From Acidimicrobiia bacterium (GTDB lineage: Bacteria > Actinomycetota > Acidimicrobiia > Spongiisociales > ZC4RG35): 43,014 nucleotides of DNA. Positions 292 through 13,318 of the stretch are shown piece by piece (positions within the stretch are counted from its first letter, which is position 1; the number at the start of each line of letters is the position of its first letter). The translations under genes and the position numbers were made by a program. The DNA lies in NCBI GenBank assembly GCA_025928935.1, contig JAICNB010000023.1:1-43014 (forward strand), written 5' to 3'. A model generated the notes under the pieces. The model had not been told where the DNA came from. It was given only the letters and a program-made list of their open reading frames with translations, and did not search any database.

Positions 292-3200
292 ATGCCTCCT
301 GCGACCAACGGTTACGCGGTAGACGACTCCGCTGTGGAGTACCGGGTGTTAGGCCCGCTGGCCGCCACCTCCGGGCCCAACCGGGTGCAGCTCGGAGGGA
401 AACGGCAGCGAATGGTCCTCGCCGTCCTCCTCGCCAACGCCAACCGCGTCCTCCCCCAGGACGCACTGGTTGACGCAGTCTGGAACGGCGAAATGCCCGA
501 TAGTGGCGCCCGCAGTCTCCATACCTACGTATCGACATTGCGCAGGACGCTCCACGGGGCCATCGAACGCGACGGCACCGGTTACATCCTCAACGTCGAG
601 CCGGAGCGGGTCGACGCCCTCCGATTCGAACGCCTGGTAACCGAGGCCCGGAGCATGCTCGTGGAGGACACAGCTAGAGCCGGGGACCTGCTGCGTCGTG
701 GCCTCGGCCTCTGGACCGGAACCCCTTATGGGGACCTCGGCTTCGAGCCGGCACTGTTCGACGAGGCGAACCGGCTCGCCGAGAGCCGGGTGGCGGCACT
801 CGAGCTGAGATTCGAGGTCGACCTCCTCCTCGGCGCCCACGAGCAGATCATCCCCGAAATCGAAGCTCTGGTGAGAGAAGAGCCGTTCCGGGAGAGTGTC
901 GCCGGCATGCTCATGCTCGCCCTCTACCGCTCCGGTCGGCAGGCCGAGGCGCTGCGGTTATACGGCGGAGTTCGGGAGCGACTGGTCGAGGAGCTCGGCA
1001 TCGAGCCCGGCCCAGACCTCCAGGACCTCGAGCTGAGGATCCTCGAAGCCGACTCCACCCTGCGCAGCCCACTGGCCGGGAGACGGGTCGCCGCCCTCGA
1101 CCTGATGCGCGGCGCACGCGGCTACGAGATCCACGAGCGAATCGGTGGGACGGAGTTCGGTGATCGATTCCGGGGATTTCACAGCACGATGGCACGCGAG
1201 GTCGGAGTGCTCGTGATCGACCGGTCGCTGGCCGACGCCGCACGGTTCATCCGTCACTTCGAGCCCGAGATGGAGGCCATCGCAAGGCTGGAGCACCCCC
1301 ATCTCGCCCCGGTGCTCGACTACTGGCGCGATCCCAACACCGCCTACGTGATCACCCCCTTCTATCGAGGCGGAACCCTCCAGGAGGCAATCGCCGACCG
1401 ACCGCTCACCTTGGGTGAGGCGATACGGCTCGCCGACCAGCTCTCGGCTGCGCTGGGCTTTCTCCACCGGCAAGGGCGGGTCCATGGCGCCATCTCGGCT
1501 GATTCGGTGCTTCTCGACGAAGACTCGAACGCCTATCTCACCGACATCGGGCTAACGGAAATCACGGGTGGCAGCGACCAGGCCGAGGCGGATGACGTCT
1601 TTCAGCTGGGCAGCCTCATCTACCAGGTCCTCACCCTGCGACGTCCCGACGGGGTGGCCACCCTCAGCGAATGGCGCAGTGACCTGCCCTCCGAGCTCGA
1701 CCACGCCGTCTCCCGAGCCCTCCACCCAAACCCGGGCCTCCGCTACCTCCACGTGGAGGACTTCGCCCGTTCCCTGCGACAAAGCGCCGGTCTCGACATG
1801 GTCGCGGTCCCAGGTGAGGGGATTCGAAAGGTCGACCGACGCAACCCCTATAAAGGGCTGAGGGCGTTCCAAGAGGCGGATGCATCCGACTTCCACGGAC
1901 GCGACGCCCTGGTCGAAGAGTTGGTCGAGGCTCTCACCTCAAGCCGGCTCGTCGCCCTGGTCGGCCCGTCGGGCTCGGGGAAGTCCTCTGCAGTGCGCGC
2001 CGGGCTTCTCCCCAGGCTGAGACAGGGGGCAATCCCCTCCTCGCGGGACTGGCTGATCACCGACATGTTCCCCGGCGCCCATCCCTTCGAAGCACTGGAG
2101 GCAGCCCTCCTCCGGGTGGCGGTCATCCGGCCGACGGATCTCTACGGCGCATTGACAGCCGACTCGGAGGGTTTGAGCGGCGTCGTCGACCAGCTTGTGC
2201 CCTCGGAAGAATCAGAGATCCTCATAGTCGTCGACCAGTTCGAAGAGCTGTTCTCGATGGTCGCCTCCGCCTCTCAGCGAAAGCTGTTCCTCGACACTCT
2301 GGTCGCAGCCACTGCGTCCCAAGGCAGGCTCCGCCTCGTGCTCACCCTGCGCGCCGACTTCTTCGATCATCCGCTGCAGTATCCCGAGTTCGCCGAGGTC
2401 TTCGGCTCCAACGTGGTCACGGTCAGTCCGCCTACCCGCGACAGCCTGGCCCGGGCGATAACCCAACCTGCCCTGAGTGTCGGAGTGAGTCTGGACCCGG
2501 GGCTGGTCACCCGGATCATTGACGACGTCCGGGAACAGCCGGGCGGACTGCCCCTTCTCCAGTTCGCCCTCACCGAGCTGTTCACCCGCCGGGATGGGGA
2601 CATCCTCACGGTCGACGCCTATGAGGCATCGGGGGGCGTCGAGGGCGCTTTGGCGAAACGAGCCGAGGAGGCCTATACCAGCCTGTCGCCTCAGGGGAAG
2701 GAGGCAGCCCGTCAGCTGTTTCTCAGACTGGTCACCGTCGACGAGCTCGCCGACGACACGAGACGCCGAGTCCGGCAGAGCGAATTGCTCGGTCTCGACG
2801 TCGACCGGGGAGTGATGAGTGACATCATGCGGCAGTTCGGCGCACTGCGGTTCCTCTCCTTCGACCGGGACGTGGCGAGCCGGGCGCCGACGGTGGAGTT
2901 GGCCCATGAGGCACTGCTCCGAGAGTGGCATCGTCTCCGAAGCTGGATCGACGAAAGACGGGAAGACCTGCTGATCCATCGTCGGATCCAGCTCACGTTC
3001 CAGGAGTGGCATGACAGCGGCGAAGATGCGAGCTATCTGCTGCGAGGGAACCGACTCGAGCAAGCCCTCGCCTGGGCCGACCGCACCGATCTCGCCGTAT
3101 CCGGCGAGGAGACCAGCTTGATCGACGCCAGCATCGAGGCGGAGAAGGTCGAACGGGCGGAGCGTCAAACCCTCGAAGCGAAGGCGGCGCGTCGGCGCAT

Positions 3201-5448
3201 GGCCGTGATCGGCGCCCTGGCCGGAGGCCTGGTGGTAGCCGGGGTGCTCGGCGCGGTGGCCCTCGATCGTGCCGGGGACGCCCGAGTGAGCGCCGCTGAA
3301 GCCACCGCCCGTGACCTGGCCTCGGCCGCTATCGCCTCCATCGACGAGGACCCCGAGCTCGGGGTCCTGCTCTCACTGGAGGCAATCGCCGCCACCGACA
3401 CGGTGGGAGTGGAGACGGTCCCCGAGGCCGGGTCGGCACTACGCACCACCCTGGCCCATACCCGTATCGAGGCAAGGCTCCCCACCGGATTCAATGCGGT
3501 CGCGTTCAGCATTGATGGGACCCGGGTGGTCACCGACGCTGCGACAGACCGTTCCACGCTTCACCTCTGGGATGCCGCCTCGACCCGCCCGCTCGCGCAA
3601 TGGTCCGGGTCAGACCAGGGCGGGTTCCCCCCGGGCGAGATCACAAAGGTGAGGCTCTCCCCCGACAACGGACTGTTTGCCGCGACCTGGAACACCAACG
3701 TCGAACAGTTCGACGCCGAGAGCACGGTTGCCCTGACCCTCCACGACCCTGACACCCTTGACCTGGAGCAGATTCTTATGGGTCCGCCCGGCACATATGA
3801 CGCTCCGAGCTTTGGGGCCAAAGATCTCATCGCGGCCAGCTTTATCGGAGACACCGGCGAGGGGGCGCAGGTATGGGACCGGGAGACCGGAGAGGTGGTC
3901 GGAACATTCGTCTCCGACACCGCGCTCTCGGGTGAGCTCATCCCCGGCACCACCACACTGGTTCTGGCCCATGGCGAGAGCCATGATGATGGTGGAGGGC
4001 TGGTCGAGACGGCCCACCTCCAAGCTGTCGACGTGATCACGTCAGAAGAGGTCTGGAGCGTCCCCGGACTAGGTATCGATCCCGGTCTGGTGTGGCTCAG
4101 CCCTGATGGGACGAAAGCGGCGATCGGGGGGGAGGACCTCGTCGAAATCTGGGATCTGGACACTCAGGACTTGATGCAATCCCATCCCCATCCTGACCCA
4201 CAGGTCATGACCTGGTCCGGAAACGGCTCACGGCTGGCGGTCAGTGGCAACGACGCCGACGTCACCATTCTCGATCAGGGCCTCGGGTGGGAGCCGGGTC
4301 TCGTCCTGACCGGTCACAGCACCTCGGTATGGGCCACATCGTTTCACCCGAGCGGGGAAACCCTCGCCTCCGCCTCAGAGGATGGAGCGGTCCTGATCTG
4401 GGATGTCACCGAGGCCGGGGCAGTCGGGGATGAAGCGGTCGCCCTAGGAACCCCGGTCGGTCTTATCTTCCTCGGTCCCGACAGTCGGATGATCGCCGGA
4501 TCCGGATCAGGAGCCATGACCGTCGACCTCACCACCGGAGGCGTGGAGGCAACCCTGCCGATCAATCAACCAACCGATCTCATCCCCAACGACCGGTTGA
4601 CCACGGTGGCCGGCGTGAACTTTGTCGACCCGGGACCCGTCGCCGGCCGCCTGGTCGACGCCGGAAGTGGACAGATCACGGAAGAGTTCTCGGACTGTCT
4701 CCTCCCAAGAGGGATCTCCTTCGACGACAGACTGGTGGTTCTCGATGCAGTCGAGGCGTGTGAACCCGGGATCACGACCACTCCGAGCCAGGTTCTTGAT
4801 CTCGAGACAGGCGACATCGTCATCGACTTAGGCGGACGAAACGTGCAGAGGGCAGTCTTCTCGCCGGAGGCCTATGACGGACCCACATTCGTCGCGGTCA
4901 AAAGCAACGACACCGAGGTAGAGATCTACTCCCTCAAAGACCGCGAGCTGGTCACCTCGTACTCTGCCGAAGACCTCGGTGTCACCGTCTTCGGGGTGTT
5001 GTCATTGGACCCTGAAGGCAGGTATCTGGGAATTGGGACCCAAGGTCGCAACTCGATCGTGATCGACATGACATCGGTAATGGCCGGCGAAGCCAGGATG
5101 GACGCGGTCATCTTCAACATGGAAGGCAACAACGCCAATGCCCCGCAGTTCCGGGTCACCAGCGATGGCATCGGGGCGAGCGCCTCCTTCGACCCTGTCT
5201 ACCGTGTTTGGGACATCAACACAGAAGAGCTGTTGTTCGAAATCAGGGTGGACGGTCTCGACGATGTCGGCGCAGTCAACTTCACGCCAGACGGCACCCA
5301 GCTCGCCTACGAGGACGCCAATGGTGTCATCAGGTTCACCCCTCTCGACACGGGCGAAGTCATCGAGCGCGCCCGTGCCACAGTGACCAGAGGCCTGACC
5401 GGCGACGAATGCCTTCAGTACTTCAAGACCGCCAAATGTGTCGGTTAG
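292..5448 (+). CDS. BTAD regulator - pseudokinase - nSTAND1 NTPase - WD40 fusion protein
   Basis: A 1718-residue multidomain signalling protein. Residues about 15-260 are a winged-helix DNA-binding domain plus BTAD domain, as in SARP/AfsR regulators. About 278-500 is a Ser/Thr kinase fold. The catalytic loop reads HGAISADS at 398-405, so the HRD Asp, the Lys and the Asn are A400, S402 and S405; the VAIK lysine appears to be Asp, while D418 of the DFG motif (DIG) remains. It is therefore probably a pseudokinase. An nSTAND1 NTPase follows, with Walker A GPSGSGKS at 558-565 and Walker B IVVDQFEE around D648. A single membrane segment lies at 970-991, then degenerate WD40 repeats to the end (best one GHSTSVWATSFHPSGE near 1342). 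The C-terminal Cys-containing tail is usual in nSTAND1-WD40 proteins. The ATG has a strong GAGGAGG ribosome site. The topology puts the DNA-binding, kinase and NTPase parts inside and the WD40 part outside. The ligand and target genes are unknown. Confidence 0.9.
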   Translation: MPPATNGYAVDDSAVEYRVLGPLAATSGPNRVQLGGKRQRMVLAVLLANANRVLPQDALVDAVWNGEMPDSGARSLHTYVSTLRRTLHGAIERDGTGYILNVEPERVDALRFERLVTEARSMLVEDTARAGDLLRRGLGLWTGTPYGDLGFEPALFDEANRLAESRVAALELRFEVDLLLGAHEQIIPEIEALVREEPFRESVAGMLMLALYRSGRQAEALRLYGGVRERLVEELGIEPGPDLQDLELRILEADSTLRSPLAGRRVAALDLMRGARGYEIHERIGGTEFGDRFRGFHSTMAREVGVLVIDRSLADAARFIRHFEPEMEAIARLEHPHLAPVLDYWRDPNTAYVITPFYRGGTLQEAIADRPLTLGEAIRLADQLSAALGFLHRQGRVHGAISADSVLLDEDSNAYLTDIGLTEITGGSDQAEADDVFQLGSLIYQVLTLRRPDGVATLSEWRSDLPSELDHAVSRALHPNPGLRYLHVEDFARSLRQSAGLDMVAVPGEGIRKVDRRNPYKGLRAFQEADASDFHGRDALVEELVEALTSSRLVALVGPSGSGKSSAVRAGLLPRLRQGAIPSSRDWLITDMFPGAHPFEALEAALLRVAVIRPTDLYGALTADSEGLSGVVDQLVPSEESEILIVVDQFEELFSMVASASQRKLFLDTLVAATASQGRLRLVLTLRADFFDHPLQYPEFAEVFGSNVVTVSPPTRDSLARAITQPALSVGVSLDPGLVTRIIDDVREQPGGLPLLQFALTELFTRRDGDILTVDAYEASGGVEGALAKRAEEAYTSLSPQGKEAARQLFLRLVTVDELADDTRRRVRQSELLGLDVDRGVMSDIMRQFGALRFLSFDRDVASRAPTVELAHEALLREWHRLRSWIDERREDLLIHRRIQLTFQEWHDSGEDASYLLRGNRLEQALAWADRTDLAVSGEETSLIDASIEAEKVERAERQTLEAKAARRRMAVIGALAGGLVVAGVLGAVALDRAGDARVSAAEATARDLASAAIASIDEDPELGVLLSLEAIAATDTVGVETVPEAGSALRTTLAHTRIEARLPTGFNAVAFSIDGTRVVTDAATDRSTLHLWDAASTRPLAQWSGSDQGGFPPGEITKVRLSPDNGLFAATWNTNVEQFDAESTVALTLHDPDTLDLEQILMGPPGTYDAPSFGAKDLIAASFIGDTGEGAQVWDRETGEVVGTFVSDTALSGELIPGTTTLVLAHGESHDDGGGLVETAHLQAVDVITSEEVWSVPGLGIDPGLVWLSPDGTKAAIGGEDLVEIWDLDTQDLMQSHPHPDPQVMTWSGNGSRLAVSGNDADVTILDQGLGWEPGLVLTGHSTSVWATSFHPSGETLASASEDGAVLIWDVTEAGAVGDEAVALGTPVGLIFLGPDSRMIAGSGSGAMTVDLTTGGVEATLPINQPTDLIPNDRLTTVAGVNFVDPGPVAGRLVDAGSGQITEEFSDCLLPRGISFDDRLVVLDAVEACEPGITTTPSQVLDLETGDIVIDLGGRNVQRAVFSPEAYDGPTFVAVKSNDTEVEIYSLKDRELVTSYSAEDLGVTVFGVLSLDPEGRYLGIGTQGRNSIVIDMTSVMAGEARMDAVIFNMEGNNANAPQFRVTSDGIGASASFDPVYRVWDINTEELLFEIRVDGLDDVGAVNFTPDGTQLAYEDANGVIRFTPLDTGEVIERARATVTRGLTGDECLQYFKTAKCVG

Positions 5449-5783: not shown

Positions 5784-6548
5784 CTATCCGGAGTCCCAGT
5801 CGTCTGTGGCGAGGCTGAAGACCAGCCTGAAGCCCCGACGGTTGTCCCAGGATTGCGTCCGCATTGAGTCGATGATGGCATGGGCTTCATCCAGGTCGGC
5901 TTGGCTCGTGCCCGGTTCCGCCTCGAGGCGGATGGCGACCGTAGTCGCTTCGATGTCGACGATCCATTCCTCTCGTCGATCATCAATTCGTCGATAGGTC
6001 CCATCATGTCCGGCGATGCTGACCGCAGTCGCGTCGCCAACGTCGGCGGGCCTCTCGGACAGGGCATCAATGCGGATTTCGACGTCACCTGATCCGTATC
6101 CGTTGTGCATGAAACCCATTACGCAGGAGGAACCGCAGGCCCCGCCCCAGGAATACAAGCCCGCCGGGTTCTCGGTGGTGCTCGGCCAGCCGTGGACGAC
6201 CTCGCCCAATGTCGTAGTCGGGTCGGGGATGGTTGTGAGCACAGTGGTCGGAGTGGGAACGGTCGTTTGATCGACTACCTGGTCATTGTCTCCACTGAAT
6301 GCGAGATACAACCCGCCCACGGTGAGGATGACGACGAATGCTGCCGCCGCCCAAGCCAGTCCCCGCCCTGGACCGACGGCGAGGGTCTTCACGGACCTAC
6401 GCTCCGGTGAAGAGTGCCTCTCCCATTGTCTGGGTACGACCTGCAGTTCTCCGCTCCGTTCGAGGATGTCCCCGACTGAGAGGGCCCCCTGTTTCTCGTC
6501 GATGAGTCGGCAGTACTCCTGGAGCTGACGGTTGAGATCAACACTCAT
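5784..6548 (-). CDS. Membrane-anchored sigma-factor partner with HNGYGSGDV-type outer domain
   Basis: A 254-residue single-pass membrane protein. The ATG (6548) overlaps the TGA of the sigma gene as ATGA, so the two are translationally coupled, which is the usual arrangement for an anti-sigma factor. Residues 1 to about 60 are the predicted cytoplasmic part with no HxxxCxxC zinc motif. A membrane helix (AWAAAAFVVILTVGGLYLAF) follows, then a Thr/Pro-rich linker and an outer domain of about 145 residues beginning VVHGWP and ending ATDDWDSG. That outer domain is clearly related to the C-terminal domain of the lipoprotein at 7946-8629: both share AGxYS, MHNGYGSGDV, REEW, TVAIRL and DEAHAIIDS. The anti-sigma role is inferred from position and topology; the outer domain is not one I recognise. 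Confidence 0.75.
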   Translation of the reverse strand: MSVDLNRQLQEYCRLIDEKQGALSVGDILERSGELQVVPRQWERHSSPERRSVKTLAVGPGRGLAWAAAAFVVILTVGGLYLAFSGDNDQVVDQTTVPTPTTVLTTIPDPTTTLGEVVHGWPSTTENPAGLYSWGGACGSSCVMGFMHNGYGSGDVEIRIDALSERPADVGDATAVSIAGHDGTYRRIDDRREEWIVDIEATTVAIRLEAEPGTSQADLDEAHAIIDSMRTQSWDNRRGFRLVFSLATDDWDSG

Positions 6549-7012
6549 CGCTCGACCCCTAGCTTGTGACGCAGCTTTCGCATTCCCCGCTCGGCGTGGG
6601 TCTGCACCGTGCTCTTCGCCACCCCCAGGGTTTCGGCCACCTCGGTCATATGCCATCCGTAGCCATGGAGCAACAAGAGAACGGCTCGTTCCTTTTCGGG
6701 GAGAGCAGCAAGGGCGGCCGGCAAACCTGGCTCGAACCATGGTGTCCGGTCCTCCGGGATCGCAGGGAAGACGGGTCTCGACCACGAGAGCAGCTTTCGT
6801 CCTTTGGATCGGCCGACGGTATAGAGATATCCCACCGGGTTGGCCATCACCCCGACTCTTTCCCAATGCTCCCAGCCGTAAGCCAAAGCTTCGGCTGCTG
6901 CCTCCCTACCGGCCTCCAGACCCAACGCTGCGGTCAGAGCGTGACGCAGCCTCCTCTCGTTGGTTTGAACAAATTCGACGAAGCCGTCGGCCCTGATCTG
7001 TTCGGGAAGCAA
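6545..7012 (-). CDS. ECF-type RNA polymerase sigma factor
   Basis: 155 residues with a sigma region 2 (about 15-75, including the NPVGYLYTVGRSKGRK stretch) and a region 4 helix-turn-helix (about 105-150, LPEKERAVLLLLHGYGWHMTEVAETLGVAKSTVQTH split over two helices). It would direct RNA polymerase to a small stress or envelope regulon. The start is TTG at 7012, preceded by AGGAG seven bases upstream. The stop overlaps the start of the membrane partner. It is divergent from the lipoprotein gene at 7156 across a 143-bp region holding a palindrome. The ECF subgroup cannot be assigned by eye. Confidence 0.85.
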   Translation of the reverse strand: MLPEQIRADGFVEFVQTNERRLRHALTAALGLEAGREAAAEALAYGWEHWERVGVMANPVGYLYTVGRSKGRKLLSWSRPVFPAIPEDRTPWFEPGLPAALAALPEKERAVLLLLHGYGWHMTEVAETLGVAKSTVQTHAERGMRKLRHKLGVER

Positions 7013-7155: not shown

Positions 7156-7902
7156 ATGCTGCAAAGGAAGCTGCGAAACATCGGGCTCGTGGCCGCCGTC
7201 CTGGCGTTGGCTGCCTGCTCCACTCCAATCGGGCAAAATCCATCTACAACCAATAATCCGTTCCCGTCGAGCACCCTGGCCCCGGCAACCCCGACCACGA
7301 CCGCGACCGCCGACCCGCCGGCCGACCCCGAATGGCCATCAGAAGGACCGATAGAACCGGGCACCCACCACCTCGCGCCTTCAGAATGGTCCGTCGCCGG
7401 TTTGACCTTGACCATTCCCGAAGGCTGGGAAACCGAACTCGGCCCACCCACCGGCATCAAACACCCTGACCGAGACGGCGAGCTGGCCTTCTATTTCGTG
7501 ACCGTCGACAGGATCTTCTCCGATCCGTGCGAAGGAATCGAAGGAGAGAAAATCGGCCCCAGCGTCGGTGATCTGGTCACGGCCCTGGTCGAACAGCCTG
7601 TCACCGAGACCAGTGAGCCGGTCGACACGACGCTGGGAGGCTTACCGGCAACGCAGATCCTGCTGACAGTCCCCGCCGGTTTCGACACCACAGAGTGCAA
7701 CGCCTCCGTAGGTCTTCAGATCTGGTACAGCCAGCCAGCAGACAAGTATCTGGTGGCGTTGGCTGACGGCACAGTGGCCATCTACATCCTCGACGTGAAC
7801 GGCGAACGCCAGGTGTTCTACACCCAGCACCAAGTCGGAACTTCAGCCAATGACCTCGACGAGATGCGAATCATTCAAGAGTCGATCCACATCGACGCGT
7901 AG
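7156..7902 (+). CDS. Secreted lipoprotein of unknown function
   Basis: 248 residues. The N terminus is a lipoprotein signal (MLQRKLRN, then a hydrophobic core ending ALAAC with the lipidated Cys at 21). A Thr/Pro-rich spacer of about 45 residues follows, then a soluble domain with two further Cys (DPCEG and TTECN). The frame is open further upstream, but only the ATG at 7156 places the signal peptide at the N terminus. The mature part (LTLTIPEGWE... and ...DEMRIIQESIHID) looks like domains that measure or bind something at the outer membrane face of actinobacteria. It is divergent from the sigma gene and 43 bp ahead of another lipoprotein. No named family is recognised. Confidence 0.75.
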   Translation: MLQRKLRNIGLVAAVLALAACSTPIGQNPSTTNNPFPSSTLAPATPTTTATADPPADPEWPSEGPIEPGTHHLAPSEWSVAGLTLTIPEGWETELGPPTGIKHPDRDGELAFYFVTVDRIFSDPCEGIEGEKIGPSVGDLVTALVEQPVTETSEPVDTTLGGLPATQILLTVPAGFDTTECNASVGLQIWYSQPADKYLVALADGTVAIYILDVNGERQVFYTQHQVGTSANDLDEMRIIQESIHIDA

Positions 7903-7945
7903 CGAGTCGGCGTTGAAGCCTGGACGCACGGAAGGAAAGACCGAG

Positions 7946-8629
7946 ATGAGGGATCGCTTTGGACGTGGGGTTGCGGTGGCCGTGCTGCTCGCGATCCTCA
8001 CCGGATGCGTGGGAGGCGTGACCGGTGAGCCCCCGACGGCCACTGTCGGTGGGGCCGGTTCCAAGACCGCCACCACGGAGGCGACCACCACCGCCGAGAC
8101 GACCACCACCACCACGCAAGCGACCACCACCACGGAGGCGACCAAAAGGTCGGAGGACGAGGTCGTCCACGGCTGGCCTACCGGCTCGCGGAACCTGGCG
8201 GGCGTGTACTCGCTGGACTGGACCCGCTGCATAGTCTCCAGGATTGATGGCACTACATCCGGCTGCAATGTCGGTTGGATGCACAACGGCTACGGGTCAG
8301 GTGACGTTCAAATCACCATTGATATCCTGCCCGCGCTGCCCCCCATCGATGACGGGTCGACCGCGGTCACCCTCGCTGCGCATGACGCGCTCTACCTACG
8401 GCGCAGCAATTGGCGAGAGGAGTGGTTCGTTGACGTTGATGGGAAGACGGTAGCCATCCGCCTTAATGCGGTCCAGCAAACGAGCCAGGCCGACATGGAT
8501 GAAGCCCACGCCATCATCGACTCGATTCGTATAGAACCGACGGACTCGATCCGTACAGCACCGGAGGACAACGACTGGGGTTTCATGGTGGTGTTCACAC
8601 TCGCCACAGACGACTGGGACTCCGGATAG
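7946..8629 (+). CDS. Lipoprotein with HNGYGSGDV-type domain, paralogous to the sigma partner's outer domain
   Basis: 227 residues. The start is chosen at 7946 because a GGAAGG-like site precedes it and the signal peptide (MRDRFGRG... ending LTGC, lipidated Cys 21) begins there. A Thr-rich low-complexity linker (about residues 45-72) leads into a domain of about 150 residues that begins VVHGWP and ends ATDDWDSG. This domain is collinear with the outer domain of the membrane protein at 5784-6548. Conserved pieces include GWMHNGYGSGDV, REEWFVDV, TVAIRL, TSQAD and DEAHAIIDS. It has two cysteines around the variable loop. A plausible role is a secreted competitor or co-receptor of the sigma partner; that is inference. 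Confidence 0.8.
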   Translation: MRDRFGRGVAVAVLLAILTGCVGGVTGEPPTATVGGAGSKTATTEATTTAETTTTTTQATTTTEATKRSEDEVVHGWPTGSRNLAGVYSLDWTRCIVSRIDGTTSGCNVGWMHNGYGSGDVQITIDILPALPPIDDGSTAVTLAAHDALYLRRSNWREEWFVDVDGKTVAIRLNAVQQTSQADMDEAHAIIDSIRIEPTDSIRTAPEDNDWGFMVVFTLATDDWDSG

Positions 8630-8873: not shown

Positions 8874-8920
8874 ATCGGTGGAGCTGACGGGATTTGAACC
8901 CGTGACCCCCTCGTTGCGAA
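8874..8920 (-). repeat. Right copy of the 47-bp direct repeat (within tRNA-Ala 3' half)
   Basis: Matches 5551-5597 at 45 of 47 bases. It covers the acceptor 3' strand, T arm and part of the anticodon arm of the intact tRNA plus five bases beyond the tRNA end, as expected for an attachment core. Confidence 0.75.
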
Positions 8921-8952
8921 CGAGGTGCTCTGCCAGGCTGAGCTACAGCCCC
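8879..8952 (-). tRNA. tRNA-Ala(CGC)
   Basis: Read on the minus strand, a full cloverleaf is seen: acceptor GGGGCTG with CAGCTCC, D stem GCTC/GAGC, anticodon stem CCTCG/CGAGG with loop TTCGCAA (anticodon CGC), and T stem ACGGG/CCCGT with loop TTCAAAT. The G3:U70 pair that marks alanine tRNAs is present. 74 nt; the CCA end is not encoded (the next bases are CCG). A partial copy lies at 5551-5597. Confidence 0.95.
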
Positions 8953-9081: not shown

Positions 9082-9690
9082 TTAGGTTCGACGTAGGTCG
9101 TCTCGGAGACGCTCCTGGACCACCGTGGCGGTGAGGTCGGAGCGGGAGCGTTCCACCAGGGCGCGGGCCACGTCCGTTGTGCGGCGGAGACCGTTGGTCA
9201 TTCCGTCGGGATAGTCCATCTCGGCGAGGAGGTCGACGATGTGGTCCATCCTCACGAGAGTGGTCTCGGCCGTCTCCACATTGCCGGCCCGGAGCAGGTC
9301 GAGGAGCCTTCGGCGCAGCTCCCCCACGGCCTCCCCCAGCCCGTGCAGGTAGGGCACCGGGTCGATACCGAGGTCTGCGAAGCCCGGCACCGGCTCGCCC
9401 TTGAACAACGCCTCGGTGATCCTGGCCTCGGCATACTCCTTGGCCGCATCGGCGACGAACCCGGCATAGAGGATGTCGGGATGCCCGGCCAACGCCGCAG
9501 AGATCTCGGCCAACTCGGCTCCGGCCTCCCCGATCAACTCCGTCGCCGAATCCCACTCCTCACGATGCAAGGCCCTGATCCCGTTCGCACAGGATCGGAT
9601 CACCTTCCTCGAACCGGTGATGCCCCTCTCGCGCGCGGCGAAGCGCGCATCGAGGACGGATCTGGCGTCGTCGGCGAAGTCAGGGCCCAT
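9082..9690 (-). CDS. Translin-family protein
   Basis: 202 residues, all helical. It has the layout of translin/TRAX proteins: an N-terminal RKVIRSCANGIRALHREEW segment, a middle YAGFVADAAKEYAEA segment, then PYLHGLGEAVGELRRRLLDLL and a C-terminal LRRTTDVARALVERSRSDLT. Translins are nucleic-acid binding, ring-forming proteins, and some are RNases; they are standard in eukaryotes and archaea and rare in bacteria. It is the last gene of the plsY-to-GlpR operon, 17 bp after the GlpR-like gene, and an IS630-like end lies in that gap. An in-frame GTG at 9693 is an alternative start. Whether the acidic catalytic residues of TRAX are present cannot be settled by eye. Confidence 0.8.
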   Translation of the reverse strand: MGPDFADDARSVLDARFAARERGITGSRKVIRSCANGIRALHREEWDSATELIGEAGAELAEISAALAGHPDILYAGFVADAAKEYAEARITEALFKGEPVPGFADLGIDPVPYLHGLGEAVGELRRRLLDLLRAGNVETAETTLVRMDHIVDLLAEMDYPDGMTNGLRRTTDVARALVERSRSDLTATVVQERLRDDLRRT

Positions 9691-9693
9691 CAC

Positions 9694-9713
9694 CTAGTGG
9701 TCTGTCGCTAATT
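9694..9713. repeat. Solo IS630-like terminal sequence beginning with CTAG
   Basis: These 20 bases (starting CTAGTGGT, ending TCGCTAATT) match 17 of the 20 bases at 42654-42673, where they form the end of an IS630-type transposase remnant. CTAG is the usual IS630 target. The stretch contains the stop codon of the GlpR-like gene and ends next to the translin start. No transposase is nearby. Confidence 0.4.
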
Positions 9714-10148
9714 GGCGATGACCTTGACCTGGGGCTCTTCCCACTCGGTTGGACGCTCGGATACGTGGGTGACCTTGAGCCGCCATTGCCGCTGCTGCTT
9801 CATCTGGGCCAGCGCGACGAGGTAGAGGGCGATCAGGGAGTCGATGAAGAGATGGAGGAGGAGCAACGGCAGCGAGTTCCGCCAAAGAGCCAGACCCGCG
9901 GTGACCACGGCAAGGCCGACGAGTATCGACATGGCGCGACGACGGCGAAGGCGGATCACGTCACGCTGCCCCACCGCCCGACGGTTGTAGCTCCGTTTCT
10001 GGACGTCGGCCATCAAGTGGGTCCAGCGATCGAACTCCTCGGTCGAGTTCTTGGGAGCATTTTGCCGGTCACCGAAGACCGAGGGGAGCAGGTACACACT
10101 CCACACGGCCGCTATCAGCAACAGCCCGACTATCACGCTTGTTGACAT
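9708..10148 (-). CDS. GlpR-like membrane protein (partner of MoeA-like Glp)
   Basis: 146 residues. An N-terminal membrane helix (STSVIVGLLLIAAVWSVYLLP) is followed by a cytoplasmic stretch (NSTEEFDRW...), a basic RRRR run, and a pair of membrane helices (MSILVGLAVVTAGLALW and LPLLLLHLFIDSLIALYLVALAQM), then a short charged tail. This layout and the position after galU-moeA match the actinobacterial membrane protein family of Mycobacterium Rv0996 and Corynebacterium GlpR, the receptor of the gephyrin-like divisome protein Glp. The ATG at 10148 is preceded by AAAGG; a GTG at 10169 is an alternative. The stop codon lies in an IS630-like end, so the last residues may be altered. The family call is from pattern and context. 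Confidence 0.6.
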   Translation of the reverse strand: MSTSVIVGLLLIAAVWSVYLLPSVFGDRQNAPKNSTEEFDRWTHLMADVQKRSYNRRAVGQRDVIRLRRRRAMSILVGLAVVTAGLALWRNSLPLLLLHLFIDSLIALYLVALAQMKQQRQWRLKVTHVSERPTEWEEPQVKVIAN

Positions 10149-10208
10149 CTGGCCTTTGACTCCGTCCACGGGTGAGCGTAGTGGGCAACCCCTTGCCCGA
10201 TCAACGAC

Positions 10209-10688
10209 TCAACCTCGTTCCCACTTTCCGGACTTTCCACCTGTCTTCCTCATCAACCTGACTGTCTCGATCGTGACGCCGCGCTCGACGCCCTTGACCA
10301 TGTCGTAGATGGTGAGAGCGGCGACTGCCACTGCCGTCATCGCCTCCATCTCGACACCGGTTCGATCAGTCGCTCGAACGCTAGCAATGACCCGGATGCC
10401 ACGCCCACTCGGCTCGAGGGCGACATCCAGCCCGGTGAGGGTGATCGGGTGACAGAGAGGGATCAGCTCCGAAGTCCGCTTGGCTGCCATTATCCCGGCC
10501 AGGCGTGCCGCCGCGGCAGCATCGCCCTTGGGAAGATCGCCGGAGAAGAAGCGCTCGGCCAACTCGGGAGCCATCGCCACGTGGCCCTCGGCGACTGCCT
10601 CCCGGTCGGTGACCTCCTTGGCTCCGATGTCGACCATGTGCGCCCTGCCCGCCTCGTCGAGGTGGGTCAACTCCGTCTCAGCGCCCAT
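10209..10688 (-). CDS. moaC: Cyclic pyranopterin monophosphate synthase MoaC
   Basis: 159 residues, the usual MoaC length. It converts the MoaA product (3',8-cyclo-GTP) into cyclic pyranopterin monophosphate, the second step of molybdenum cofactor synthesis in the cytoplasm. The sequence shows the strictly conserved KGD (K54), the LCHPI motif (78-82), and TGVEMEAMTAVAVAALTIYDMVK with D129 and K132 of the active site. Its start lies 11 bp inside the end of moeA, so it is translationally coupled. No moaA, moaD or moaE is in the window; the rest of the pathway must be elsewhere. Confidence 0.95.
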   Translation of the reverse strand: MGAETELTHLDEAGRAHMVDIGAKEVTDREAVAEGHVAMAPELAERFFSGDLPKGDAAAAARLAGIMAAKRTSELIPLCHPITLTGLDVALEPSGRGIRVIASVRATDRTGVEMEAMTAVAVAALTIYDMVKGVERGVTIETVRLMRKTGGKSGKWERG

Positions 10689-11907
10689 CGGTCCACTCCC
10701 TCGACTCGGGCCACTTGAACATCTCTACGGTGACCTCTTCACCCTTGCCCACCTTGGCCGTTCCCCGGGGCACCAGGGCGAACCCGTCAGCCGCAGCCGC
10801 TGCCGACAGCACATTCGAGGCCTGACCTCCCGACTTCACCACGCTGGGGACGCCCTCATCGAGGCCATCGACCAACACCCGGACAAAGACGGTCTTCGCG
10901 GGGTCCGTGTCGAAGTCCTCACCCGCCCGGGCGACGATCTGGGGTCGGAGGATGGCCCGGGCCCCCTGCATCTTGAGAAGAGCGGGACGGGCGAACTGCT
11001 CGAAGGAGACGAGCACCGAGACCGGGTTGCCGGGAAGGCCGAAGAAGAGGGCGTCACCGATGTGCCCGAAGGCGAAGGGCTTGGCCGGCTGGATCGCCAA
11101 CTGCCAGAAGTCGACCCGGGCGTCCCCCTGGAGCACCAGCTTTGTCACGTCGTAGTCACCCATGGACACCCCGCCGGTCGACACCACCACATCGGCCTTG
11201 CTCCCCTCGTCGAGAGCCTCTCGGAGAGCAGCGGTGTCGTCGGGCACGATGCCCAGGTCCACCGTGTCGACGCCGGTGTCCTCGAGCAGCGAGAGCAGCA
11301 TCGGGCGATTCGAGTCTCTTATCGCACCGGGGGCCAAAACGGCAGACTCGGGCGGGGTGAGCTCATCACCCGTCGACATGAACGCGACACGCGGCCTGCG
11401 GTAGACGAGGGGGTGACCCACCCCGATGGTGGCCAGGACCCCGACGTGCATCGGGGTCAGCCTGGTCCCTGCGGTGAAAACCACATCACCCAGGGCGACG
11501 TCGCCACCGGCGGGACGGACCGAAGTGCCCGTCTCGACAGCGGTCGTCACGGTCACCCTCGAGCCGTCGACGCGGGTGTCCTCGACTCGCACCACCGTGT
11601 CGGCGCCCGGTGGGATGGGGGCCCCGGTCATGATCTTGATCGCCTGGCCGGGGCCCACCACGCTATCCGTGGTCGATCCGGCGGGGAGATCGCCGATGAC
11701 ATCCAGGACCGTACCCGGACCGGCCACGTCGGCGCCTAGGACGGCGAACCCGTCCATGGCCGAGTTGGCCCAAGGAGGGACATTCTCCGGAGCGGTGATA
11801 TCGCCCGCCAGGACCCGCCCCTTCGCTTCCCAGATCGGAACCTCTTCGACATCGAGGAGTCCCGCCGACGTCAGCACCTCGGCCCTTGCTTCCTCGAGGG
11901 GCCTCAC
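10678..11907 (-). CDS. moeA: Molybdopterin molybdenumtransferase MoeA / gephyrin-like Glp
   Basis: 409 residues, full length. MoeA inserts molybdate into adenylated molybdopterin. Motifs seen: PPWANSAMDGFAV (NSAMDG 48-53), GAPIPPGADTVVRVED, FMSTGDEL, STGGVSMGDYD, QPAKPFAFG and FFGLPGNPVSVLVSFEQF. The start is GTG at 11907, overlapping the galU stop as GTGA. The order galU-moeA-membrane protein is the one seen for moeA1 in mycobacteria and for glp in corynebacteria, where the protein works with FtsZ and GlpR in division. The adjacent moaC supports the cofactor role, so both roles remain open. Confidence 0.9.
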   Translation of the reverse strand: MRPLEEARAEVLTSAGLLDVEEVPIWEAKGRVLAGDITAPENVPPWANSAMDGFAVLGADVAGPGTVLDVIGDLPAGSTTDSVVGPGQAIKIMTGAPIPPGADTVVRVEDTRVDGSRVTVTTAVETGTSVRPAGGDVALGDVVFTAGTRLTPMHVGVLATIGVGHPLVYRRPRVAFMSTGDELTPPESAVLAPGAIRDSNRPMLLSLLEDTGVDTVDLGIVPDDTAALREALDEGSKADVVVSTGGVSMGDYDVTKLVLQGDARVDFWQLAIQPAKPFAFGHIGDALFFGLPGNPVSVLVSFEQFARPALLKMQGARAILRPQIVARAGEDFDTDPAKTVFVRVLVDGLDEGVPSVVKSGGQASNVLSAAAAADGFALVPRGTAKVGKGEEVTVEMFKWPESREWTDGR

Positions 11908-12716
11908 CCGGCCCGCTCCCTCAGCCAGGACTTGAACTCCTCCCCGAACTCGTGCTCCCCCAGCTCGACCGAAGCCTCGAGCAGGCCGATGGGCGTGCCC
12001 ACATCGAGGAGGTCTTCCTCGGCGACATAACCGCGAAGACGACCCCTGGAGCCCAATTCGTTTATGGCATCGGTGAGCTGGATCTCACCGCCATGGCCCG
12101 GCTCGAGCTTGCCCAGGATCTCGAAGACCTCGGGGGTGAACAGATAGCGGCCGACCAACCCGAGGCGTGACGGCGCGTTGGCCGGGCCGGGTTTCTCCAC
12201 CGCGCCGGCGAGATCGAGATATCGGTCCTCTACGTCGGAGGCAGGGACCACCACTCCGTACTTGCTCAAGAACTCCTGGGTGAGCTCCCGGAGGCACATG
12301 ACCGACACGGCTCCGTCATGACTCCCTGCGGCGAGCCCGGCGAGGACGTCGTGGCCGGGCCGGACGATGTTGTCGGAGAGGAGACAGAAAAAGGGCCGGT
12401 CGCCCACCATGTGCGCCGCCTCGTTGACGGCGTGCCCCAGCCCGAGCGCCTCCTCCTGGACCACAGGGCGCAGATGGATGTCCTCGAGCCCGGTGAGAGG
12501 GCCTTCGATACTGAAGTGTTGGGCCACCAGGTGCCCGGCGTCGAGGTCGACGACCACCACGGCCTCCTTGGCGCCGGCGCGGGCTGCCTCTTCCACCGCA
12601 TACTGGATTGCGGGGCGATCGATGACGGTGAGCAGCGCCTTGGGCACCACCCGGCTCGCCGGGCGCATCCTCGTCCCCCGGCCGGCAGCAGGGATAACCG
12701 CTACTTCGATGCTCAT
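11904..12716 (-). CDS. galU: UTP-glucose-1-phosphate uridylyltransferase
   Basis: 270 residues. It forms UDP-glucose from UTP and glucose 1-phosphate for envelope polysaccharide and glycolipid synthesis. The nucleotide-binding signature PAAGRGTRMRP (9-19) with VPKALL (24-29), QEEALGLGHAV, SDNIV, VEKPGPANAPS and GGEIQLTDAI are all present, as in bacterial GalU. The ATG overlaps the plsY stop (ATGA), and its own stop overlaps the moeA GTG, so it sits in the middle of a coupled operon. It is slightly shorter than most GalU proteins (about 290-300). Confidence 0.93.
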   Translation of the reverse strand: MSIEVAVIPAAGRGTRMRPASRVVPKALLTVIDRPAIQYAVEEAARAGAKEAVVVVDLDAGHLVAQHFSIEGPLTGLEDIHLRPVVQEEALGLGHAVNEAAHMVGDRPFFCLLSDNIVRPGHDVLAGLAAGSHDGAVSVMCLRELTQEFLSKYGVVVPASDVEDRYLDLAGAVEKPGPANAPSRLGLVGRYLFTPEVFEILGKLEPGHGGEIQLTDAINELGSRGRLRGYVAEEDLLDVGTPIGLLEASVELGEHEFGEEFKSWLRERAG

Positions 12717-13318
12717 GTCGAGACTCGCTCCTCGCTGCCGGAGACCATGCGCTTGATGTTCCCACGATGACGCCAGACCACCAACGCGATGATCAAGCCG
12801 ACCCAGACCAGGGCCAGCCCGCTCACGCCCTGCCAGATCAGAAGAGGAACCGTGATGACGACGATGACCATCGAGCCGATCGAGGCGGTCCTGGTAACGA
12901 AGAAGATGAGGAACCAGATTGCGATCTCGATCACTGCGAGGAGCGGCACGGTGAAGAGGAGCACGCCACCACCGGTGGCCACGCCCTTGCCACCCTTGAA
13001 TCGGTGAAAGATCGGATAGCAGTGCCCGACCACGGCAGCCAGACCGGTCAGGAAGGCCCAGTGGACCATCGGGTCGGGGACACCGGAAGCGACCATTCCC
13101 ATCGCCGCCCCGATCGTCCCCTTGAGCGTGTCACCGATGAAGACCATGGCGGCAGGGACGCGTCCCAGGGTCCGCAGGACGTTCGACATCCCGGGGTTGC
13201 CGCTCCCCTCCTGATGGATGTCCACCCCGTGCATCCGGGCCACGATCACCGCAAAGTCGATGCTCCCCACGAGATAGGCGGCGACGATCGCCAGCGGCAG
13301 AGCGACGGCGGGCGGCAT
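12713..13318 (-). CDS. plsY: Glycerol-3-phosphate acyltransferase PlsY
   Basis: 201 residues with five or so membrane helices. It transfers the acyl group of acyl phosphate to glycerol 3-phosphate, the first step of membrane phospholipid synthesis. All three PlsY motifs are seen: GSGNPGMSN (38-46), GDTLKG (62-67) and GHCYPIFHRFKGGKGVAT (98-115). The C terminus is WRHRGNIKRMVSGSE. It is the first gene of the six-gene minus-strand operon, and a TATGAT -10 element lies eight bases before the ATG, implying a leaderless message. Confidence 0.95.
   Translation of the reverse strand: MPPAVALPLAIVAAYLVGSIDFAVIVARMHGVDIHQEGSGNPGMSNVLRTLGRVPAAMVFIGDTLKGTIGAAMGMVASGVPDPMVHWAFLTGLAAVVGHCYPIFHRFKGGKGVATGGGVLLFTVPLLAVIEIAIWFLIFFVTRTASIGSMVIVVITVPLLIWQGVSGLALVWVGLIIALVVWRHRGNIKRMVSGSEERVST

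Follow-up and report, generated by a model that had tools for sequence, protein, structure and literature searches.

The gene at positions 9,082–9,690 on the minus strand of the window (the whole 43,014-nucleotide stretch of Acidimicrobiia DNA that was analyzed) encodes a member of the translin/TRAX superfamily that is closest to archaeal TRAX ("C3PO"). The explanation favored in this study, and judged probable, is that it represents a bacterial branch of archaeal-type TRAX that would assemble with itself, cut RNA in a metal-dependent manner, be inherited mostly vertically in a fixed slot and have been lost repeatedly.

The open reading frame spans 9082–9693 on the minus strand with its stop at 9082, and its product has 203 aa if the start is GTG 9693 or 202 aa if it is ATG 9690. 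Of 60 related genomes, 38 carry a homologue, and no inner stops occur in these copies, which points to a real coding gene. The Nei-Gojobori dN/dS values against two congeneric copies were 0.20 and 0.12, and the gene is under purifying selection. Among named relatives, metagenome-assembled genomes of Acidimicrobiia are the closest. Five genes precede the TRAX gene in a minus-strand run, which is given here in the order of reading together with the tRNA gene that follows it:

12713..13318, minus: plsY glycerol-3-phosphate acyltransferase (PF02660, 1.4e-48)
11904..12716, minus: galU-like nucleotidyltransferase (PF00483, 1.8e-26; TIGR01099, 1.6e-54)
10678..11907, minus: moeA/glp, molybdotransferase or gephyrin-like Glp (PF03453, 1.5e-46; MoeA 397 bits and Glp 335 bits, both below cut-off)
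10209..10688, minus: moaC (PF01967, 1.1e-51)
9708..10169, minus: small membrane protein, weakly SepX/GlpR-like (NCBIfam SepX/GlpR, 3.3e-4 to 9.7e-4, far below cut-offs), separated by 17 nt from the TRAX gene downstream
9082..9690, minus: TRAX-like protein of the archaeal C3PO type, 202 aa if counted from ATG 9690, with the putative acidic catalytic set E85, E88, E120 and E124
8877..8952, minus: tRNA-Ala(CGC), which follows the TRAX stop codon on the same strand at a distance of 129 nt

The initial annotation placed the TRAX gene at the end of a plsY-galU-moeA operon, and this agrees with the gene order, the single strand and gaps or overlaps of no more than 39 nt. A search for a terminator or promoter between the TRAX gene and the tRNA found none, though such a search is uninformative in GC-rich DNA. 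The SepX/GlpR-like gene was found in 55 of the 60 relatives. Its position near moeA raises the separate point that the run may match the actinobacterial Glp-GlpR pair described in the accessible part of PMC10522489, in which case "MoeA" here could be Glp. Elsewhere in the window, a 1718-aa protein at 292–5448 contains a BTAD transcriptional-activator part, a kinase-like part, an nSTAND1 NTPase and WD40 repeats, and the ORFs at 5784–6866 (minus) and 7850–8629 (plus) have similar ends (SLATDDWDSG and TLATDDWDSG), a sign of local duplication.

When solved structures were searched, phmmer matched the window protein to TRAX of Archaeoglobus fulgidus (AfTRAX) at an E-value of 5.8e-18 over residues 8–197 of 203. 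A profile built from 50 homologues matched AfTRAX at 1.2e-34 over nearly the full length of the window protein, followed by Nanoarchaeum equitans NEQ131 (1.1e-12), human TRAX (3.2e-5) and Drosophila TRAX (8.7e-5), and the next row after the TRAX entries was ribosomal S15 at 0.2. The AlphaFold2 model, a single chain predicted from the same 50 sequences, consists entirely of helices (pLDDT 95.0, pTM 0.89), and the best 46 rows of a Foldseek search with it were all C3PO or translin entries. Structural alignment with VIA-align gave a Z of 24.9 for AfC3PO (188 residues aligned, rmsd 1.4, 31% identity), 22.3 for the N. equitans complex (NeC3PO), 20.8 for chain J (TRAX) of human C3PO and 19.2 for the TRAX chain 3axj_B of Drosophila C3PO. 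Translins scored 16.4–18.3, and two partial Drosophila translin chains scored 13.0. The predicted structure thus has the all-helical translin fold, with AfC3PO as the nearest solved relative in both sequence and fold. The phmmer match, the profile match and the model fold bear out the original assignment to the translin family. The finer assignment is TRAX-like, not translin-like, because the fold Z is higher for TRAX chains than for translins and because the four TRAX acids are kept.

All TRAX-only complexes of known structure that the searches found come from archaea. AfTRAX (PDB 3zc0, 3zc1) resembles the window protein in being a single-gene TRAX of similar length, with a whole-length match in fold and aligned acids, but it is archaeal, has D where the window protein has E120, and has alanine in place of the bacterial R39 and R43. 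NeC3PO (NEQ131; PDB 5jr9, 5jrc, 5jre) is likewise a TRAX-only complex with a fold Z of about 22 and with E-x-x-E and D-x-x-x-E aligned with the acids of the window protein, but it is archaeal, about 20% identical and has D instead of E120. NeC3PO has been solved with ssRNA (5jrc) and with ssDNA (5jre), and TRAX alone in N. equitans is described as degrading RNA through oligomerization in the accessible part of PMC9051087. TRAX of human and Drosophila C3PO (PDB 3pja, 3qb5, 3axj, 3riu) shares the fold (Z 17.9–20.8) and the same spacing within the acid pairs. However, it is only 17–18% identical and partners with translin in a hetero-oligomer (C3PO is called a hetero-octomeric RNase in the portion of PMC9246224 consulted), whereas the window genome has one copy of the family only and no Argonaute.

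The nuclease residues of human TRAX are given as E126, E129, D193 and E197 in the part of PMC9753400 that was available. Their counterparts in the window protein are E85, E88, E120 and E124, a placement that rests on the spacings of 3 and 4 within the pairs and on the alignment to AfTRAX and NEQ131. An alignment of 134 rows combined 133 distinct sequences, drawn from 190 loci, with the query, itself a repeat of one of them. In it, E85, E88 and E124 were invariant in 134/134, and position 120 was E in 133 and D in 1. The check for TRAX-type acidic residues suggested at the outset was therefore passed. Position 120 is D in AfTRAX, NEQ131 and human TRAX, and the change from D to E, although conservative, may affect function. 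At the residue that pairs with E120, one of the two deposited AfTRAX sequences has D and the other A. The A version belongs to 3zc0, the RNA complex, which would fit a catalytic mutant used as a trap and hence a catalytic role for this residue. R20, R28, R39, H42, R43, R126, R127, D173 and R183 are among the other residues conserved without or almost without exception. AfTRAX has alanine opposite both R39 and R43, which suggests that the bacterial branch has distinct features and that its RNA contacts may differ.

An alternative is that the protein has the TRAX fold and binds nucleic acid without nuclease activity, storing or shielding RNA as a translin-like scaffold. Translin keeps the fold while the TRAX subunits are said to hold the catalytic sites (PMC3834833, seen in part), and the D-to-E change at position 120 is in line with such a role. 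However, all four positions are acidic in 134/134 rows, which is stronger conservation than binding alone needs, and the fold is nearer to TRAX (Z 20.8) than to translin (16.4–18.3). This alternative is therefore considered unlikely.

Across the 60 relatives, the TRAX gene was missing from 22; among the 43 genomes of best quality it was present in 29 and missing from 14. Since many related genera lack it, the gene is dispensable for RNA metabolism in these bacteria. Bacterial sampling covered two phyla. In the phylum of the window, 105 of 396 genomes, requested at a completeness of at least 90%, carried the gene, as did 82 of 151 genomes of the second phylum, that of locus L095, which is Chloroflexota (Dehalococcoidia) by the label of its record. 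The expectation that translin-family proteins are uncommon in bacteria did not hold for these two phyla. A 2012 paper on evolution of the translin superfamily in eubacteria is also cited in the accessible portions of PMC5424206 and PMC8762117. Bacterial members are thus widespread in two phyla and already described, and the window gene is one more member of a known family. The original observation was correct, its rarity was overstated and the finding is a fairly ordinary one.

A quick tree of 80 rows (the window, 77 loci chosen from 190 fetched and two archaeal chains) formed one clade from the 23 rows of the window's order and another from 4 rows that represent other families of the class, each with an SH-aLRT of 99. 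Deeper forks were weakly supported, with Chloroflexota and Actinomycetota rows partly mixed there, and the two archaeal rows lay on very long branches that meet, which the tree program flagged. Mostly vertical inheritance inside Actinomycetota with repeated loss forms part of the explanation judged probable above. An origin from a mobile element was rejected, since the TRAX protein had no match in plasmid or phage collections and none in PHROGs.

Across Acidimicrobiia the TRAX gene is flanked by the SepX/GlpR-like gene and tRNA-Ala(CGC), and the tRNA also adjoins it in a number of other families within the phylum. A tRNA-Ala(CGC) on the same strand lay within 1 kb downstream of TRAX in 54 of 80 named loci; the remaining loci were either cut within 200 nt (6) or without the tRNA (20, 10 of them Chloroflexota). 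The same arrangement was seen in 10 of 20 loci from other Actinomycetota families, and no tRNA lay within 1 kb of the TRAX gene in a Chloroflexota-type sample (0/20 loci). One could therefore propose that a single-protein C3PO trims or destroys tRNA leaders or fragments and is for this reason kept directly upstream of tRNA-Ala(CGC). If true, this would parallel the part that C3PO plays in Neurospora tRNA processing, and also the pairing of TRAX with SepRS in archaeal operons (PMC5424206 and PMC8762117, each seen in part). However, relatives without the TRAX gene still had the tRNA downstream of the same operon in 12 of 16 fetched loci (it was absent there in 4). In 12 TRAX-less genomes from other families of the same class, 6 distinct tRNA-Ala(CGC) genes were found, all six with moaC no more than 1.4 kb upstream; a seventh tRNA locus (L242) repeats one of the six, and no tRNA-Ala(CGC) was recognized in the other 6 genomes. 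Because 12/16 TRAX-less relatives keep the tRNA after the operon, the tRNA is an inherited neighbor and gives no evidence of a substrate. Together with the 0/20 loci of the Chloroflexota-type sample, this led to rejection of a functional coupling between TRAX and the tRNA, and a tRNA-directed role that explains the position of the gene is doubtful, slightly more so than the scaffold. The clean reading is an ancestral operon-tRNA neighborhood with the TRAX gene in between, lost several times.

One TRAX-less relative (L202, genome G016) has about 1.2 kb (3337–4536) between its SepX/GlpR-like gene and tRNA-Ala(CGC), in the slot of the TRAX gene.

Beyond this neighborhood, the commonest shared neighbor of Chloroflexota-type and other Actinomycetota loci occurred in only 6 of 32 by a crude and weak longest-ORF method (44 loci were tried and 12 dropped because the ORF caller missed the gene). 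With so little shared, gene context gives no substrate.

Membership in the family is less apparent from Pfam. The window protein alone scored 11.8 bits against PF01997 (Translin), short of the cut-off of 25.9 bits, which is a score threshold and not a biological trait, and PF01997 had 0 matches when the whole genome was scanned. This means that Pfam alone would miss the window protein as a translin/TRAX member. Scanned singly, 28 of the 50 homologues did match PF01997 at E≤0.1 (best 4.4e-7), which made it the most frequent Pfam match; others at this threshold were YfdX (15/50), PhoU (7/50, best 0.0053) and PTS_IIA (5/50). These matches, the sub-threshold PF01997 score and the Z of 11.3 for PTS IIA and 10.7 for PhoU-like chains over 86–90 residues (no unrelated row scored above 11.3) could be taken to mean that the protein belongs to another all-helical family (PhoU, DUF47 or PTS IIA) and resembles translin in helical make-up only. 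Against this stand the near whole-length AfTRAX profile match at 1.2e-34, the Z of 24.9 over 188 residues and the position of Translin as the top Pfam match. A better PhoU- or DUF47-type match, named beforehand as the result that would speak against translin, was not seen (PhoU 7/50 compared with Translin 28/50; Z 10.7 compared with 24.9). The profile match and the fold Z rule out these families at the family level, and this reading is considered highly improbable.

That the protein is a haloacid dehalogenase superfamily enzyme, a title borne by its best NCBIfam match (NF011160, 4.5e-67) and five sister models, has next to no likelihood, because NF011160 and PF01997 match exactly the same three archaeal control genomes, Pfam yields no HAD family even at E-values as high as 1 and the predicted fold is that of an all-helical TRAX. 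Each of these six PRK14562 models (NF011156–NF011161) was matched by 50/50 aligned homologues at E≤1e-5, but they are titled "haloacid dehalogenase superfamily protein" and the window protein falls below every curated cut-off. The title is likely a misnomer carried over in annotation.

The preferred reading, a self-assembling TRAX of archaeal type, suggests the following mode of action. By analogy with AfC3PO and NeC3PO, the all-helical protein would assemble with itself into a closed hollow oligomer, short RNA would be taken inside, and the RNA would be cut by a metal-dependent acidic site formed by E85, E88, E120 and E124. The oligomer, the use of a metal and the cleavage of RNA are thus predicted features, and the protein is probably a homo-oligomeric endoribonuclease. 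Our best guess is that it serves the general turnover of RNA pieces that are short or structured, tRNA leaders and fragments included. It is unlikely to partner with Argonaute as its eukaryotic relatives do, because 59 of the 60 relatives have no Piwi domain (PF02171) and the sole carrier (G024) has no TRAX gene.

Literature searches, which covered few subscription papers, found no experimental work on bacterial TRAX. The NCBI title of "haloacid dehalogenase superfamily" probably hides the TRAX family in a large number of bacteria. Species that have one TRAX gene and lack Argonaute would offer a simple setting in which to study the role of this family without RNA interference.
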